64,000 nt of DNA from positions 2,480,001-2,544,000 of the forward strand of contig NC_013517.1 of the NCBI RefSeq assembly GCF_000024405.1, written 5' to 3'. Source of the DNA: Sebaldella termitidis ATCC 33386. Its GTDB lineage: Bacteria > Fusobacteriota > Fusobacteriia > Fusobacteriales > Leptotrichiaceae. Each line of letters starts with the position of its first letter. Positions within the stretch are counted from its first letter, which is position 1. Both the position numbers and the translations under genes were made by a program. Shown in pieces: positions 47,210 through 56,838 of this stretch. The notes below the pieces were generated by a model, which ran no database searches, had not been told where the DNA came from, and saw only the letters and a program-made list of their open reading frames with translations.

Positions 47210-47503
47210 ATGTTTTGTGAAATTAATTATATAATTTTTATATAGTCAGAATATATAATTTTTCTTTTTAAGCCATTTTTCCGCCAAATATTCCACTGTC
47301 TGTATATAATGATAATATGCAGAATTTTTAATTTCATTAAAGAAGCAGTTTTACATATTTATTTATTATGCTGATATTAATAATTTCTGTCAAAAGCAGT
47401 CTTAAATTATATTATATGTCTGGACTTTCATAACTAAGATTCCATACATAAAAAAATACACATTCTTTCTGTATTTATTATAAATAAATTTTATTTTTTT
47501 AAT

Positions 47504-47532
47504 TTGACATAATATTTTAACGATAATATAAT
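47504..47532 (+). promoter_or_regulatory. Perfect consensus promoter of the RHH gene
   Basis: TTGACA (47504-47509), exactly 17 nt, TATAAT (47527-47532). Both hexamers match the sigma70 consensus fully, which is rare. The transcript would start near 47539, leaving about 20 nt of leader. Confidence 0.8.
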
Positions 47533-47557
47533 TACAGGTAATAAGGAGGGGATAAAA

Positions 47558-47731
47558 ATAGATTTTAAATTATTTGAAAAAACTGATATACCATTATCTG
47601 TCACTATTAGTAAGACGCTTTTTGAAAGGATCAATATAGTCGTAAAGCAGGAGGGCGTGAATAAAAGTACTGCGGTAAGAGTGCTGCTGGAAAAAGGATT
47701 GGAATACTATGAGAATAAGCTGAATAAATAA
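47558..47731 (+). CDS. Ribbon-helix-helix DNA-binding protein with apparent AUA start
   Basis: 57 residues beginning (I)DFKLFEKTDIPLSVTISK and ending GLEYYENKLNK. The body VTISKTLFERINIVVKQE-GVNKSTAVRVLLEKGLEYY fits a CopG/Arc ribbon-helix-helix repressor: a short strand, two helices and a GxNKSTA turn. No ATG, GTG or TTG is in frame before the protein body. AAGGAGG ends 8 nt before ATA at 47558, and the predicted mRNA starts only about 20 nt upstream, so AUA is the probable initiator. It would bind DNA as a dimer, likely repressing its own perfect promoter. Confidence 0.7.
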   Translation: MDFKLFEKTDIPLSVTISKTLFERINIVVKQEGVNKSTAVRVLLEKGLEYYENKLNK

Positions 47732-47917
47732 AACTGTATCTGCCTTAGTATTTTAAGCACTTAATCTTCAAAAGCCATTTTTTAAGTCTTAAGTAAAAGA
47801 CGGATTGTATCAAAATAAAAAATTTTTGATATAATTCCTGTTTTTTAACATTAGTAAAAAAATCAGAAGTAAAATCAGTTAATTGATTCATTATATGCTG
47901 TAAATACCTTAGAATGA

Positions 47918-47945
47918 ACAAAATGAGCCATCAGGCTCATTTTGT
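47918..47945. terminator. Perfect 12-bp hairpin between convergent genes
   Basis: ACAAAATGAGCC (47918-47929) and GGCTCATTTTGT (47934-47945) with a 4-nt loop. T runs are inside the stem on both strands. It lies between the RHH gene and the convergent DUF4189 gene and probably serves both. Confidence 0.65.
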
Positions 47946-47996: not shown

Positions 47997-48758
47997 TTAC
48001 TTAACCTCACCCTCGGCCATTCCCTCCAGTACAATTTCACATGTTTTTACCTTAAATTCCTTTTTACATCTTTTTATTGCATCTTTTCCAGCATCTTTCA
48101 TATTTTTATTAGAAAGACCTACTATTAATTCTTTCCCGGGACTCATGGCCATCACAGCATACGTACTTTGAAACCCGAGTGATGCACATTCTGGACTGCC
48201 GCAAGATTTTTCCGAAGCTGCCACTGCTTCACGGCGTGTATAATGATTCCATGACTTTCCCCATTTTCCTGTTTTTATATTATAAGACAGAGAACCCCAT
48301 CGTTTTTCATCAGGCTTTGATGTGCTGCTCGTCATCAATACAACCTCGCACTCATATCCTCCTGCTTTCTGACATGCTGCTATTGCATTTTTCCATGCAC
48401 TGTCATAAGAATCAGCAGAACCAAATTTTGTTACTTTATCATCAGATGAAATAGCAACTGCCGTATAGTAATAGCTTGCCCAGTGGCTGATACATCTGTT
48501 TGAATTGCTTTTTTGCACACAAATTTTTTCCGAAGCATATTTTGCACTTTCACCATCACTGTAATTCCATGCTGCCCCGTATTTTCTGCTGACAGGATCT
48601 ATGGAAACTCCTCCGTAAGTTCTGGCTGCAGGCGGTGCAGGACATTGTCCCACCGGCATGTGCCCTCCCCCGTAACATTGCTCAAGCGGAATAAAATTCG
48701 CTTTAGAAATAAAATTAAAACTTAAAAAAACTAAAAAGAAAAATAATAACTTTCTCAT
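47997..48758 (-). CDS. DUF4189 secreted protein
   Basis: 253 residues with a signal peptide (MRKLLFFFLVFLSFNFISKA). Two DUF4189-like repeats follow: YGGVSIDPVSRKYGAAWNYSDGESAKYASEKIC ... AVAISSDDK and WGSLSYNIKTGKWGKSWNHYTRREAVAASEKSC ... AVMAMSPGK. Each repeat has paired cysteines and the alternating small-residue and aromatic pattern of this family. Cys-rich secreted DUF4189 proteins are widespread in bacteria but functionally undefined. A paralogue lies at 50103-50858 on the other strand. Confidence 0.8.
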   Translation of the reverse strand: MRKLLFFFLVFLSFNFISKANFIPLEQCYGGGHMPVGQCPAPPAARTYGGVSIDPVSRKYGAAWNYSDGESAKYASEKICVQKSNSNRCISHWASYYYTAVAISSDDKVTKFGSADSYDSAWKNAIAACQKAGGYECEVVLMTSSTSKPDEKRWGSLSYNIKTGKWGKSWNHYTRREAVAASEKSCGSPECASLGFQSTYAVMAMSPGKELIVGLSNKNMKDAGKDAIKRCKKEFKVKTCEIVLEGMAEGEVK

Positions 48759-50102: not shown

Positions 50103-50858
50103 ATGAGAAAGTTATTATTATTAATAGTATTGTTATTTGGAATTTTAAGTTTTCAGTCTTTAGCAGGATGCGGCGCACAAATATGCACATGTCCTTATGG
50201 CGGATATGTTACCTTTGGACAGGATTGTCCCGGTCCCAGTATTACTTATTACGGCGGAATTGCAATTAATCCTCACACAAGATCTTTTTATTCGGCATGG
50301 AACTATCGAAACGGTGAAGAAGCAGAAGCAGCTGCCTTAAAAGGCTGCGGAGGCAACAGCTGTGTTTCTACCTGGGCAAGCTCTACTTATATGGCAATAG
50401 CAATTTCAGAAGATGAAAAAAATTGGGGTTATGGTGCTTCTAATAATCAGAGTGACGCTTGGGATAAGGCAGTTAGTATGTGTCAGAAATCGGGAAAAAC
50501 ATGTCATGTAGCTTTGGTCGGCTATCCTAATGAAAAAGCCAGATATGTTTATTGGGGATCAGTTGCATATAATCCAGATACAGGCCAGACAGGAAAAACT
50601 TCAAATGAACTTCGAAAAAGAACAGCTGAAAATCAATCACTTGTAAATAGCGGGTGTACTTATAATCCTAATTGCTATTTTTATGCTTTTCAAACAGCTT
50701 ACGGCGCATTAGCTAAAGGAGAGTCAAACAAAGTTTATTCAGGCACTTCAAATAAAAGCCTGAAAGATGCAGAAAAACAGGCTGAAAAAAACTGTAAAAA
50801 AGGAACCGGTGATAAACAGTGTAAGGCTCTGATAAGCTCGGCAAAAAATAAGAAATAA
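50103..50858 (+). CDS. DUF4189 secreted protein, paralogue
   Basis: 251 residues with a signal peptide (MRKLLLLIVLLFGILSFQSLAG). Same two-repeat design as the protein at 47997-48758: YYGGIAINPHTRSFYSAWNYRNGEEAEAAALKGC ... AIAISEDEKN and WGSVAYNPDTGQTGKTSNELRKRTAENQSLVNSGC. Cysteines are conserved at similar spacings. The two genes face away from each other around the PNPOx gene (minus at 48 kb, plus at 50 kb), suggesting an old inverted duplication with independent promoters. Role unknown; probably periplasmic or surface-exposed. Confidence 0.8.
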   Translation: MRKLLLLIVLLFGILSFQSLAGCGAQICTCPYGGYVTFGQDCPGPSITYYGGIAINPHTRSFYSAWNYRNGEEAEAAALKGCGGNSCVSTWASSTYMAIAISEDEKNWGYGASNNQSDAWDKAVSMCQKSGKTCHVALVGYPNEKARYVYWGSVAYNPDTGQTGKTSNELRKRTAENQSLVNSGCTYNPNCYFYAFQTAYGALAKGESNKVYSGTSNKSLKDAEKQAEKNCKKGTGDKQCKALISSAKNKK

Positions 50859-51113: not shown

Positions 51114-53087
51114 TTAAGGTGTAACTATATTAAAATCCGGTGTGAATGTATCAAAGAAAGTTAAAGCCTCCTTGAATTTTTCCACATCGCCTGCAATTTT
51201 AGCATTACCGCTTTGAATCTCCTTGTCTAGTGTAGACTGTTTCACAAGAATATTATTAAGAGCTTCTTTTGGTAATGTTAGTGTAATGTCAGCATTATTC
51301 TTAAATGAATCTACTTTTCTATACACAAGAACAGAATTTTCCATTGTAACGGTATATTTACTTTTTATATCCGGTATATCCCAATTCATAGTAATACTTG
51401 TATTCTTTGCTTTTTCACTGTTTAAACGTATCCCCATATAATCAAGAAACATGTCAACAGTCATCGCTCTGATTGTGTCAGGTGTATCTGCTCCTATACC
51501 TGCCGGAAGCTTTACTTTTCCATTTCTTAATTCAAAAGCGCCCATTAAGTATTCATTTCTCCATGTAGCATTTTCAGTCTGATATCCTAATTGTTCCAGA
51601 GCATCAGCAGCAAGATTTTTAGCCTCCTGATTATCAGGCTCAGCAAATACTACTCTGTTCATTAATTCGGCCACCCATCTGTATTCACCATTTTTATAAT
51701 ATTCTTTTGCTTTTTTTATTATTGATTTTGAACCGCCCATTACCTCAACATATTTTTTTGAAGCTTCTTCCGGCGGCAGAGGATTTAAATTTGCCGGATT
51801 ACTGTCATACCAGCCTAAATATCTTTGGTACACTGCTTTTGCATCATGATTCACACTTCCGTAATATCCTCTAAGTGACCACTCCTGTTCCAGCACATCC
51901 GGTAATTTTATCATTTCTGCGATTTCATTCATTGTATAACCTTTATTTGCCAAATTTAATGTCTGATCATGAATATATTTATAAGCATCTCTTTGCTTTT
52001 CAAGATAAGTATTAATTTCTTTATTTCCCCATTTAGGCCAATGATGCTGTGCTATTACTACCTCTGCTTTATCACCGTATGTACTCAGCATCATGTCAAT
52101 TGCTTTCCACCATTTAGCAGCATCCCTTACCTGTGCTCCCCTTAAAGTGTATAAATTATGCAGTGTATGTGTAGCATCCTCAGCAGTATTTAGCAATTTG
52201 AACTGCGGATAATACATTATCATTTCTGACGGTGCTTCTGTTCCGGGCACTAGACTAAACTCTATCTGAACACCATCTATGGTTCTAGTTTCAGTATTTT
52301 TTGAAATTATGTCAGTTGGCGCAATAAGTCCTACTGAGCCTACAGAAGTCGTTTTCCCCAGTCCGCCGTCTACCTGCCCTTTTTCTCCTCTTGGAAGCAA
52401 AGCTCCATACATATACAGTGCTCTTCTTCCCATCGCATTTCCGGCATACACATTTTCACTGACAGCTTCCTCAAGGAATCCTTCCGGAGCATAAACCTTT
52501 ACTTTCCCGGATTTTACATCTTCATCTGTAATTACGCCTCGCACTCCTCCGTAATGATCTCCGTGGCTATGGCTGTATATTACAGCAACTATAGGTTTTT
52601 TAGGTCTGTTTTGATAATAAAGATCAAGTGCGGCTTTGGCAGTTTCAGCACTCATTATAGGATCAGTAATTATTAATCCTTTATTTCCTTCAACTATTGT
52701 CATATTAGAAATATCGAATCCTCTTACCTGATATACCCTGTCTGTTACTTTAAATAATCCGTTGATATTATTTATCTGAGCAATTCTCCATAAGCTTGGA
52801 TTTACCGTAAAAGGAGCAGATTTTCCATTTAAAAATTCATAACTTGTTATGTCCCAGACATTATGTCCATCAGAAGACGGAATTACTAATTTTGGTAAAG
52901 TAGCAACAAATCCTTTTTTAGCATCGTCAAAATCCTGAGTATCACTAAACGGAAGCTCTTGTAAAACTTGTTCATTTTTTTCTTTTGTAAACGATGTAGC
53001 ATCTTTAGATGTTTCGGCTGCAAGCAGATTAACTGATAAAACTAAAGATAATACTGCTAATTTTAGAATATTTTTTTTAATTTCCAT
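51114..53087 (-). CDS. Alkyl sulfatase, SdsA1/BDS1 family
   Basis: 657 residues. A signal peptide (to about LLAAE) is followed by a metallo-beta-lactamase domain with the zinc motif HSHGDH at 173-178 and a later QHHWPKWGN, then a helical dimerisation segment, and a C-terminal SCP2-like lipid-binding domain (from about 530). This architecture defines the linear primary-alkylsulfatases, which hydrolyse detergents such as dodecyl sulfate with inversion. It is probably periplasmic. The gene follows the MarR-type regulator by 37 nt, so expression is likely derepressed by an alkyl sulfate or similar ligand. Confidence 0.92.
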   Translation of the reverse strand: MEIKKNILKLAVLSLVLSVNLLAAETSKDATSFTKEKNEQVLQELPFSDTQDFDDAKKGFVATLPKLVIPSSDGHNVWDITSYEFLNGKSAPFTVNPSLWRIAQINNINGLFKVTDRVYQVRGFDISNMTIVEGNKGLIITDPIMSAETAKAALDLYYQNRPKKPIVAVIYSHSHGDHYGGVRGVITDEDVKSGKVKVYAPEGFLEEAVSENVYAGNAMGRRALYMYGALLPRGEKGQVDGGLGKTTSVGSVGLIAPTDIISKNTETRTIDGVQIEFSLVPGTEAPSEMIMYYPQFKLLNTAEDATHTLHNLYTLRGAQVRDAAKWWKAIDMMLSTYGDKAEVVIAQHHWPKWGNKEINTYLEKQRDAYKYIHDQTLNLANKGYTMNEIAEMIKLPDVLEQEWSLRGYYGSVNHDAKAVYQRYLGWYDSNPANLNPLPPEEASKKYVEVMGGSKSIIKKAKEYYKNGEYRWVAELMNRVVFAEPDNQEAKNLAADALEQLGYQTENATWRNEYLMGAFELRNGKVKLPAGIGADTPDTIRAMTVDMFLDYMGIRLNSEKAKNTSITMNWDIPDIKSKYTVTMENSVLVYRKVDSFKNNADITLTLPKEALNNILVKQSTLDKEIQSGNAKIAGDVEKFKEALTFFDTFTPDFNIVTP

Positions 53088-53124: not shown

Positions 53125-53619
53125 TTAAAAAAAATCAAGACTGCAGAATAATTTTAACGAATTATGTTTTAAGTATTTTAATTCTTCACTGGTAAAATTC
53201 ATTAACAGTCTTTCATACTTTAAATGGTATTCAGACATGACTTCATTCAAAAAAATCAAACCTTTTGAAGTGATGCATATATTGCAGAATCTCTTGTCTT
53301 TTTCTGAAACTTCTTTTTTTACAAGCTCTTTTTTATTTAATGTTTTTATTACATTGCTTATTGTAGGATTAGATAATCCTAATTTTCTTGAAATACTGCC
53401 CGGCGTTTCAAAACCATTTTCACTTATAACTAAAAGTAAAAGTATCGATATCTGAGTGCTTGTGACTTCAAAACGGCTGAGGTAGCTATCAATCTTTCCG
53501 GTAATTTTTTGATGTGCCAGCATATAACTAAAAAATGTCTTTGTAGGCTCTGAATCTGTAATATTATATTTTTTTATTAATTTGTTAAGCTTTTCCAGAT
53601 CAGGAAATTTATTTTTAAT
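53125..53619 (-). CDS. MarR-family repressor with apparent AUU start
   Basis: 164 residues if read from ATT at 53619. The body shows a MarR winged helix: LAHQKITGKIDSYLSRFEVTSTQISILLLLV (dimerisation helix and helix 2), GSISRKLGLSNPTISNVIKTLNKKELVKKE (recognition helix) and RFCNICITSKG (wing). The annotated-looking ATG at 53523 lacks a ribosome binding site and would remove the first family helix. GAGGTGA matching the anti-SD lies just 5' of the ATT, with an optimal 7-nt distance. An alternative is one missing A in the A5 run at 53612-53616, which would open the frame from ATG at 53639, though that ATG has no Shine-Dalgarno. It probably controls the downstream sulfatase. Confidence 0.8.
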   Translation of the reverse strand: MKNKFPDLEKLNKLIKKYNITDSEPTKTFFSYMLAHQKITGKIDSYLSRFEVTSTQISILLLLVISENGFETPGSISRKLGLSNPTISNVIKTLNKKELVKKEVSEKDKRFCNICITSKGLIFLNEVMSEYHLKYERLLMNFTSEELKYLKHNSLKLFCSLDFF

Positions 53620-56199: not shown

Positions 56200-56838
56200 G
56201 TGAGTTCTATAAAATTTACATCCCGACAAAAAGAAATAATTAAAATTGTAGAGAAGAATCAGCCTGTTACCGGCGAAGAAATAGCACAGATCCTGAAGAT
56301 GAATAAATCTACACTGCGATTAGATTTTTCTGTATTAACCAAGTTCAATATACTTATAGCAAAACCTAAAATTGGTTATTCTCTGGCAGGCAGCCACTTC
56401 CACTATTTTTCCAAAGAAGAGATAAAAGAACAGGATATCTCCGAAGTTATGGAAGTCCCTACACTTATAAACCACGATACAAACATAAAAGATGCAATAA
56501 TAAATCTGTTTATGTACAATACAGATATTTTATATGCTGTAGATAACAACTCCCTTGTAGGTGTGGTCACTAAAAAAGATCTTTTAAAAATAAGCATAAA
56601 CGGAAAAGATCTGGAAAAAATTCCTGTTAGTCTGGTTATGACCAGAATGCCTAATATTATTTATCTGTACTCCAAATCATCTATTTATGACGGCATTCAA
56701 AAACTGAATTATCACCAGATTGACAATATTCCCATAGTAAAAAGCATGGAAGAAAACGGAAAAAATATCCTGAAAGTTATAGGCCAGTTTTCTAAAACTA
56801 CAGCCTGTAATCTATTTTTTGAACTACTTGACAAATAG
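56200..56838 (+). CDS. ccpN: CcpN-type regulator (HTH plus CBS pair)
   Basis: 212 residues: winged helix-turn-helix at 1-60 (SRQKEIIKIVEKNQPVTGEEIAQILKMNKSTLRLDFSVLTKF), then two CBS domains with DAIINLFMYNTDILYAVDNNSLVGVVTKKDLLKI and GIQKLNYHQIDNIPIV. The family includes B. subtilis CcpN, which represses gluconeogenic genes in response to ATP/ADP. The start is GTG at 56200; ATA three codons later is preceded by AGGTGAG and cannot be excluded. Followed by PDRP and PPDK genes, the same order found in Firmicutes. Confidence 0.85.
   Translation: MSSIKFTSRQKEIIKIVEKNQPVTGEEIAQILKMNKSTLRLDFSVLTKFNILIAKPKIGYSLAGSHFHYFSKEEIKEQDISEVMEVPTLINHDTNIKDAIINLFMYNTDILYAVDNNSLVGVVTKKDLLKISINGKDLEKIPVSLVMTRMPNIIYLYSKSSIYDGIQKLNYHQIDNIPIVKSMEENGKNILKVIGQFSKTTACNLFFELLDK

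Follow-up and report, generated by a model that had tools for sequence, protein, structure and literature searches.

A strong promoter and a probable AUA start codon at a ribbon-helix-helix-like regulator gene of Sebaldella termitidis

Precedents for weak start codons and the infC gene of the family

The closest described systems are regulators of Staphylococcus aureus and Streptomyces whose translation begins at poor start codons. According to the accessible part of one report (PMC13009471), S. aureus uses AUA starts in ccpN, infC and citZ and an AUU start in cvfC1, and reporters for the three genes tested (ccpN, citZ and cvfC1) reached roughly 10-30% of the AUG level. The same text puts the yield of the ccpN AUA start at ~10% of AUG when the medium is poor, rising to as much as 30% when it is rich, and describes this start as conserved between S. 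aureus and B. subtilis. The available portion of a second report describes sigR of Streptomyces as having a GTC start and being repressed by IF3, with a canonical start leading to overproduction (PMC5472188). Our literature search found nothing joining a ribbon-helix-helix (RHH) protein with an AUA start codon.

Here we consider such a combination in Sebaldella termitidis ATCC 33386. The window, by which we mean the whole 64,000-nt stretch of contig NC_013517.1 that was analysed, contains a short gene that a sequence-only reading had described as an RHH regulator beginning at AUA behind a perfect promoter. That reading cited infC as a precedent, and the comparison holds within this family as well. 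The gene is present in 33 of 33 genomes, and among the 30 loci returned (L040-L043 and L114-L139) the position 8 nt past AGGAGG is occupied by ATA in 26 cases and by ATT in four, and never by ATG, GTG or TTG. An in-frame ATG lies eleven codons downstream in 20 of these loci and is absent from the other 10; a GTG lies inside the Shine-Dalgarno (SD) sequence in all 30, without an SD of its own, and is the sole other canonical codon near the start in 10. We infer that infC of the family starts at AUA or AUU, and gene models that place the start at the GTG, or at the ATG further on, are probably mistaken.

Promoter, start site and conservation of the RHH-like gene

The genome of the window is designated G000, and G001 and G002 are other species of the genus with the RHH-like gene. 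The main features are collected in the table below.

Table. Features of the window discussed in the text (positions are those of the window).
Feature	Position	Strand	Remarks
A/T-rich tract abutting the 5' side of the -35 box	47473..47503	+	kept in 3/3 species (three-locus alignment)
Sigma-70 promoter, TTGACA-17-TATAAT	47504..47532	+	consensus match 12/12
Shine-Dalgarno AAGGAGG	47543..47549	+	pairs with 16S 3' end GGATCACCTCCTTTCT
ATA, inferred start codon	47558..47560	+	aligned codon ATA (G002), ATG (G001)
RHH-like regulator ORF, 57 aa	47558..47731	+	stop included (47729-47731)
Hairpin, 12 bp, 4-nt loop	47918..47945		between convergent RHH-like and DUF4189 genes, direct reading
MarR-family regulator, candidate ATT start 53619-53617	53125..53619	-	no canonical start before residue 33
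CcpN homologue, likely ATA start 56209-56211	56209..56838	+	listed GTG 56200 within SD AGGTGA

The promoter was verified as matching the consensus at all twelve positions with a 17-nt spacer, as had been claimed, and the A/T-rich tract before it may be an UP-element-like sequence. Tract and promoter together differ at 3 of 58 aligned positions between G000 and G002; by reading, the promoter is again 12/12 in G002 and 11/12 in G001, where the -35 box is TTGACT. Perfect promoters of this spacing number 63 genome-wide, while the reversed control pattern occurs 6 times, and that of the RHH-like gene is strong-looking and not unique in the genome. Among the 30 of the 63 that were examined, a script found a canonical start in 21 (18 ATG, 2 GTG and 1 TTG) and none in nine, and no general rule pairing strong promoters with weak starts emerged from these 30. 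The single TTG belongs to locus L064 (G000:C1, ~1428.9 kb), where the perfect promoter lies 5' of a MarR paralogue; this TTG is internal to the MarR-type frame, the head of which lacks ATG, GTG and TTG. A search for operators returned weak A/T-rich inverted repeats and no clear operator, and no RNA leader or riboswitch was matched in Rfam between 44000 and 51000 at E up to 0.1.

On its 5' side the RHH-like frame is open only back to a stop at 47510, within the promoter. The claim that no in-frame ATG, GTG or TTG precedes the body was borne out: the in-frame GTG and TTG codons are codons 34, 42 and 48, all within the body, of which the first is a GTG, and from the -10 box to codon 11, with all frames considered, just one ATG, GTG or TTG occurs, a TTG at 47574 that is out of frame. 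The AAGGAGG said to lie in the leader was also found, and its duplex with the anti-SD has an energy of -11.6 kcal/mol, compared with -14.0 for infC. The spacing from AGGAGG to ATA is 8 nt, or 5 nt from the end of the aligned AAGGAGGTGA, a register common to ccpN and, by reading, to infC. An ideal distance had been proposed for the AUA; the spacing is good but is not a single ideal, the 5-nt register occurring in 169 of 1268 ATG matches in a 2.46-Mb sample. Folding at the start region is slightly weaker than in shuffled versions of it (z ~ +1.25). The gene has two of the properties expected of a regulator with a conserved AUH start (AUA, AUU or AUC), namely the lack of a usable in-frame canonical start and a strong SD at suitable spacing.

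Orthologues were sought with the protein in 60 genomes, that of the window among them, and with a profile in 98 genomes of the phylum. Clear orthologues were confined to the genus, with 96% identity in G002 and 76% in G001; none were found by profile beyond the three species among the 98 genomes, nor in viral contigs, plasmids or phages. The gene is absent from a further genome, G003, by both tblastn and profile, and in a scan of contigs the G002 contig was the sole match. A match in a fourth genome (E 0.008) was not counted as a relative, as it sits inside a 507-aa frame, and other weak protein-search matches (best E 0.0085) contain stops and were likewise set aside. The start codon is ATA in two of the three species having the gene, G000 and G002, and ATG in the third, each 3' of a GGAGG-type SD. 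An ATG conserved in orthologues, which the sequence-only reading would have taken as the sign of a sequence error, is present in just one of the two orthologues and therefore does not demonstrate such an error.

The G000 and G002 coding sequences are separated by 12 synonymous and 2 nonsynonymous codon changes (dN 0.015, dS 0.51), giving P ~8e-7 for at least 12 of 14 changes being synonymous under neutrality (22% of single changes synonymous) and P 1e-4 with an assumed transition bias (35% synonymous). Its neighbours, pheA and two genes that we take to be an rsuA-like gene and aroE, have dS of 0.27-0.38 for the same pair, and the RHH-like gene has therefore diverged with its surroundings and is equally old. 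If the ATA arose once, before G000 and G002 split, these codon changes accumulated under an ATA start in a gene in use. Codons 2-26 show 5 synonymous and no nonsynonymous changes, which argues that they are translated, and synonymous changes occur in 0 of 13 early codons (2-14) as against 12 of 43 later ones (P 0.027), which faintly suggests constraint on the start region. Comparison of the species thus indicates that the gene is translated and used, being neither a dead gene nor a sequencing error. Translation from AUA is well supported, since a second species keeps ATA in a gene subject to purifying selection, ATG occupies the position in a third, and infC has ATA or ATT family-wide. Retention of ATA in only two species is not by itself proof of selection for weakness, because at dS 0.5 a single neutral site can escape change, and AUA is not required for the protein's function in every species, because G001 has ATG.

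The encoded protein, its surroundings and other regulators with candidate AUH starts

The description of the protein as having an RHH body stands in part. The three orthologues score 14.8, 15.9 and 16.7 bits with Pfam RHH_1, below the gathering cut-off of 20.5, over 37 of 39 profile positions; CopG-like and other repressor profiles of PHROGs match at E 0.006-0.08, and the best PDB matches, which fall short of significance, include CopG and TraM. All three sources agree on residues ~12-54. An AlphaFold monomer model (from three sequences, pLDDT 80) has helices at 13-32 and 36-56, where two helices are expected, but no strand, and a Foldseek search with it returned no match at E <=0.001. The protein is probably RHH-like, without being filed in the RHH_1 family, and is a putative dimeric DNA-binding repressor that possibly represses its own promoter. 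No toxin gene of the kind that would accompany a type II antitoxin (CopG_antitoxin) lies in its operon, the flanks being the oppositely oriented pheA and DUF4189 genes; other genes flank it in G001 and G002.

The RHH-like gene appears monocistronic and is divergent from pheA in G000, G001 and G002; in G001 a gene read from its translation as channel-like lies between the two. The hairpin on its 3' side is possibly a terminator, though uncalled by the scan. Also 3' of the gene, 47781-47921 resembles three other places in the genome at 82-83% identity, and a reverse frame in it (MNQLTDF) is similar to the beginning of a transposase-like ORF adjoining the gene in G002; the segment is probably an insertion-sequence remnant. 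DUF4189 proteins are encoded at 47997-48758 (-) and 50103-50858 (+), on both sides of a pyridoxamine-oxidase-like gene.

Two further regulators in the window have candidate AUH starts. In the CcpN homologue, an ATA lies nine bases past the listed GTG, and the corresponding codon is ATA in G001 and G002 and ATC in G003. The G003 copy, 82% identical to that of the window, contains HTH_11 and CBS domains and lies before pheA in a genome that has no RHH-like gene there. It matches NCBIfam NF053704 (CcpN) over its whole length (E 7e-60) at 201.9 bits, below the cut-off of 260, and is therefore a homologue of this Bacilli-built model that is not filed as an equivalog; in the alignment its residue 4, encoded by the codon (ATC) that corresponds to the window's ATA, falls on model position 1. 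The window's homologue likely starts at ATA 56209. Downstream of it lie what we presume to be a PpsR-like gene and then PPDK. Taken together, infC and ccpN suggest that regulation through AUA starts reaches beyond Bacillota.

The MarR-family regulator seems to start at ATT. Four relatives start with ATG at or near the place of this ATT and one paralogue likewise has no canonical start; no close orthologue carrying ATT was found, and the case is therefore weaker than those of the RHH-like gene and CcpN. The large ORF that follows it (51114-53087, -) is presumably alkylsulfatase-like.

To gauge how common such starts are, a survey covered 2.46 Mb, or 55% of the genome with the window counted in, and applied filters on SD, register, frame length and the lack of another start, in place of a simple count of codons after SD sequences, which was too noisy. 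The filtered survey left 27 candidates, of which seven have ATA, ATT or ATC (2.8 expected, P 0.017). Three of the seven lie in the window, and outside it the count is 4 of 24 against roughly 2.5 expected, one of the four sitting at the edge of a stretch; without the window's three the number is thus near expectation, and we dropped the idea of a genome-wide excess. Candidates in rRNA regions, in IS-like genes and in short frames also stood on a wider list and were left out. Long frames with a strong SD, an ATT (or ATC) and no canonical start found were also seen in the 60-kb blocks of G000:C1 from 1300001 (57200 and 32311, -) and from 2800001 (41743, -); by eye, two of these three are membrane-protein-like and one is PAP2-like. 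The clustering of the RHH-like, CcpN and MarR regulators within 8.7 kb was noticed post hoc and is suggestive only.

A model of weak initiation and its comparison with known systems

We hypothesize that a strong promoter drives transcription of the gene, that its product is a functional RHH-like regulator of 57 aa, and that weak initiation at AUA under discrimination by IF3 keeps this product at a low level, a reading to which we assign a probability of about 0.72. In this model the promoter would yield abundant mRNA, to which the strong SD would recruit 30S subunits, and the initiator tRNA would begin translation at AUA. AUA mismatches the initiator anticodon at the third base and would be discriminated against by IF3, such that only a fraction of ribosomes would initiate and little protein would be made from much mRNA, at a level that may vary with growth condition or IF3 activity. 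What happens after SD binding is modelled on S. aureus ccpN and infC and on sigR, as far as the accessible parts of those reports describe them (PMC13009471, PMC5472188), and the low level, the IF3 dependence and the DNA binding of the regulator are predictions. A plausible benefit would be a regulator held low and responsive to initiation conditions. Of the original proposal of a regulator beginning at AUA, the start site is well supported by sequence comparison, and its suggested purpose, whether to keep the repressor scarce or to couple it to initiation fidelity, would be in line with the ccpN, infC and sigR cases. The noise control that was also suggested found no support in the analysis.

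The main rival, because G001 manages with ATG, is that AUA is used yet is merely a tolerated, near-neutral substitution with no regulatory role. The occurrence of ATA in two species only is consistent with this, and a strong promoter and SD could offset a weak start; the long-kept AUH starts of infC and ccpN in the same clade argue against it, as does, more faintly, the lack of synonymous change in the early codons. We consider it unlikely, with a chance that still deserves serious weight. A start-loss allele, in which an ancestral ATG became ATA and left the gene silent or decaying in the G000 lineage, is favoured by the ATG at the aligned position in G001 and by the poor quality of AUA as a start codon. 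The ATA shared with G002 implies one origin before the split, however, followed by predominantly synonymous change, and promoter and SD are also preserved; this makes start loss improbable, a case that independent recent origins of ATA would weaken.

Initiation elsewhere is a far slighter prospect still. In G000 an AGGAGG stands before the GTG of codon 34, but G002 has lost this GGAGG and G001 has GTA in place of the GTG, and the pattern of change in codons 2-26 points to translation upstream of it; the TTG at 47574 would require slippage, being out of frame and 24 nt from the SD. A one-base sequencing error in G000, for which the ATG of one orthologue might speak, has a negligible chance, as ATA is also read in JAITVW010000223.1, a MAG contig from another species (G002) that was sequenced separately.

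Returning to the weakly initiated regulator, a broader extension would make initiation fidelity itself a regulatory input in the genus, acting on infC and on the RHH-like, CcpN-like and MarR-like regulators. We hold this extension to be doubtful at best; if true, AUA and AUU starts at nearly the same SD register would mean that changes in IF3 activity shift several regulators together. As gene callers usually ignore starts other than ATG, GTG and TTG, such regulators are apt to be missed or mis-started. The RHH-like gene offers a fusobacterial AUA start with evolutionary evidence, and the orthologues with ATG (G001) and with ATA (G000 and G002) form a natural pair for gauging the effect of a weak start.

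Among known systems, the CopG/RHH repressors (RHH_1; plasmid CopG, PDB 1b01) resemble the protein in weak profile similarity and in two helices at the expected places, and differ from it in that it scores below the gathering cut-off, lacks a beta strand in its monomer model and has an unusual start codon. S. aureus ccpN and infC share with it an AUA start after a strong SD, and the product of ccpN is a transcriptional repressor, as stated in the part of the report available (PMC13009471); the RHH-like gene is unrelated to them, encodes 57 aa, occurs in one genus only in our searches and has a start deduced from sequence. The accessible account of sigR similarly presents a regulator whose level a non-canonical start keeps down, as is predicted here, whereas sigR encodes a sigma factor, starts at GTC rather than ATA, is co-transcribed with an anti-sigma factor and is the one for which IF3 dependence was shown (PMC5472188). 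With these likenesses and differences, the RHH-like gene joins the known weak-start genes infC, ccpN and sigR.
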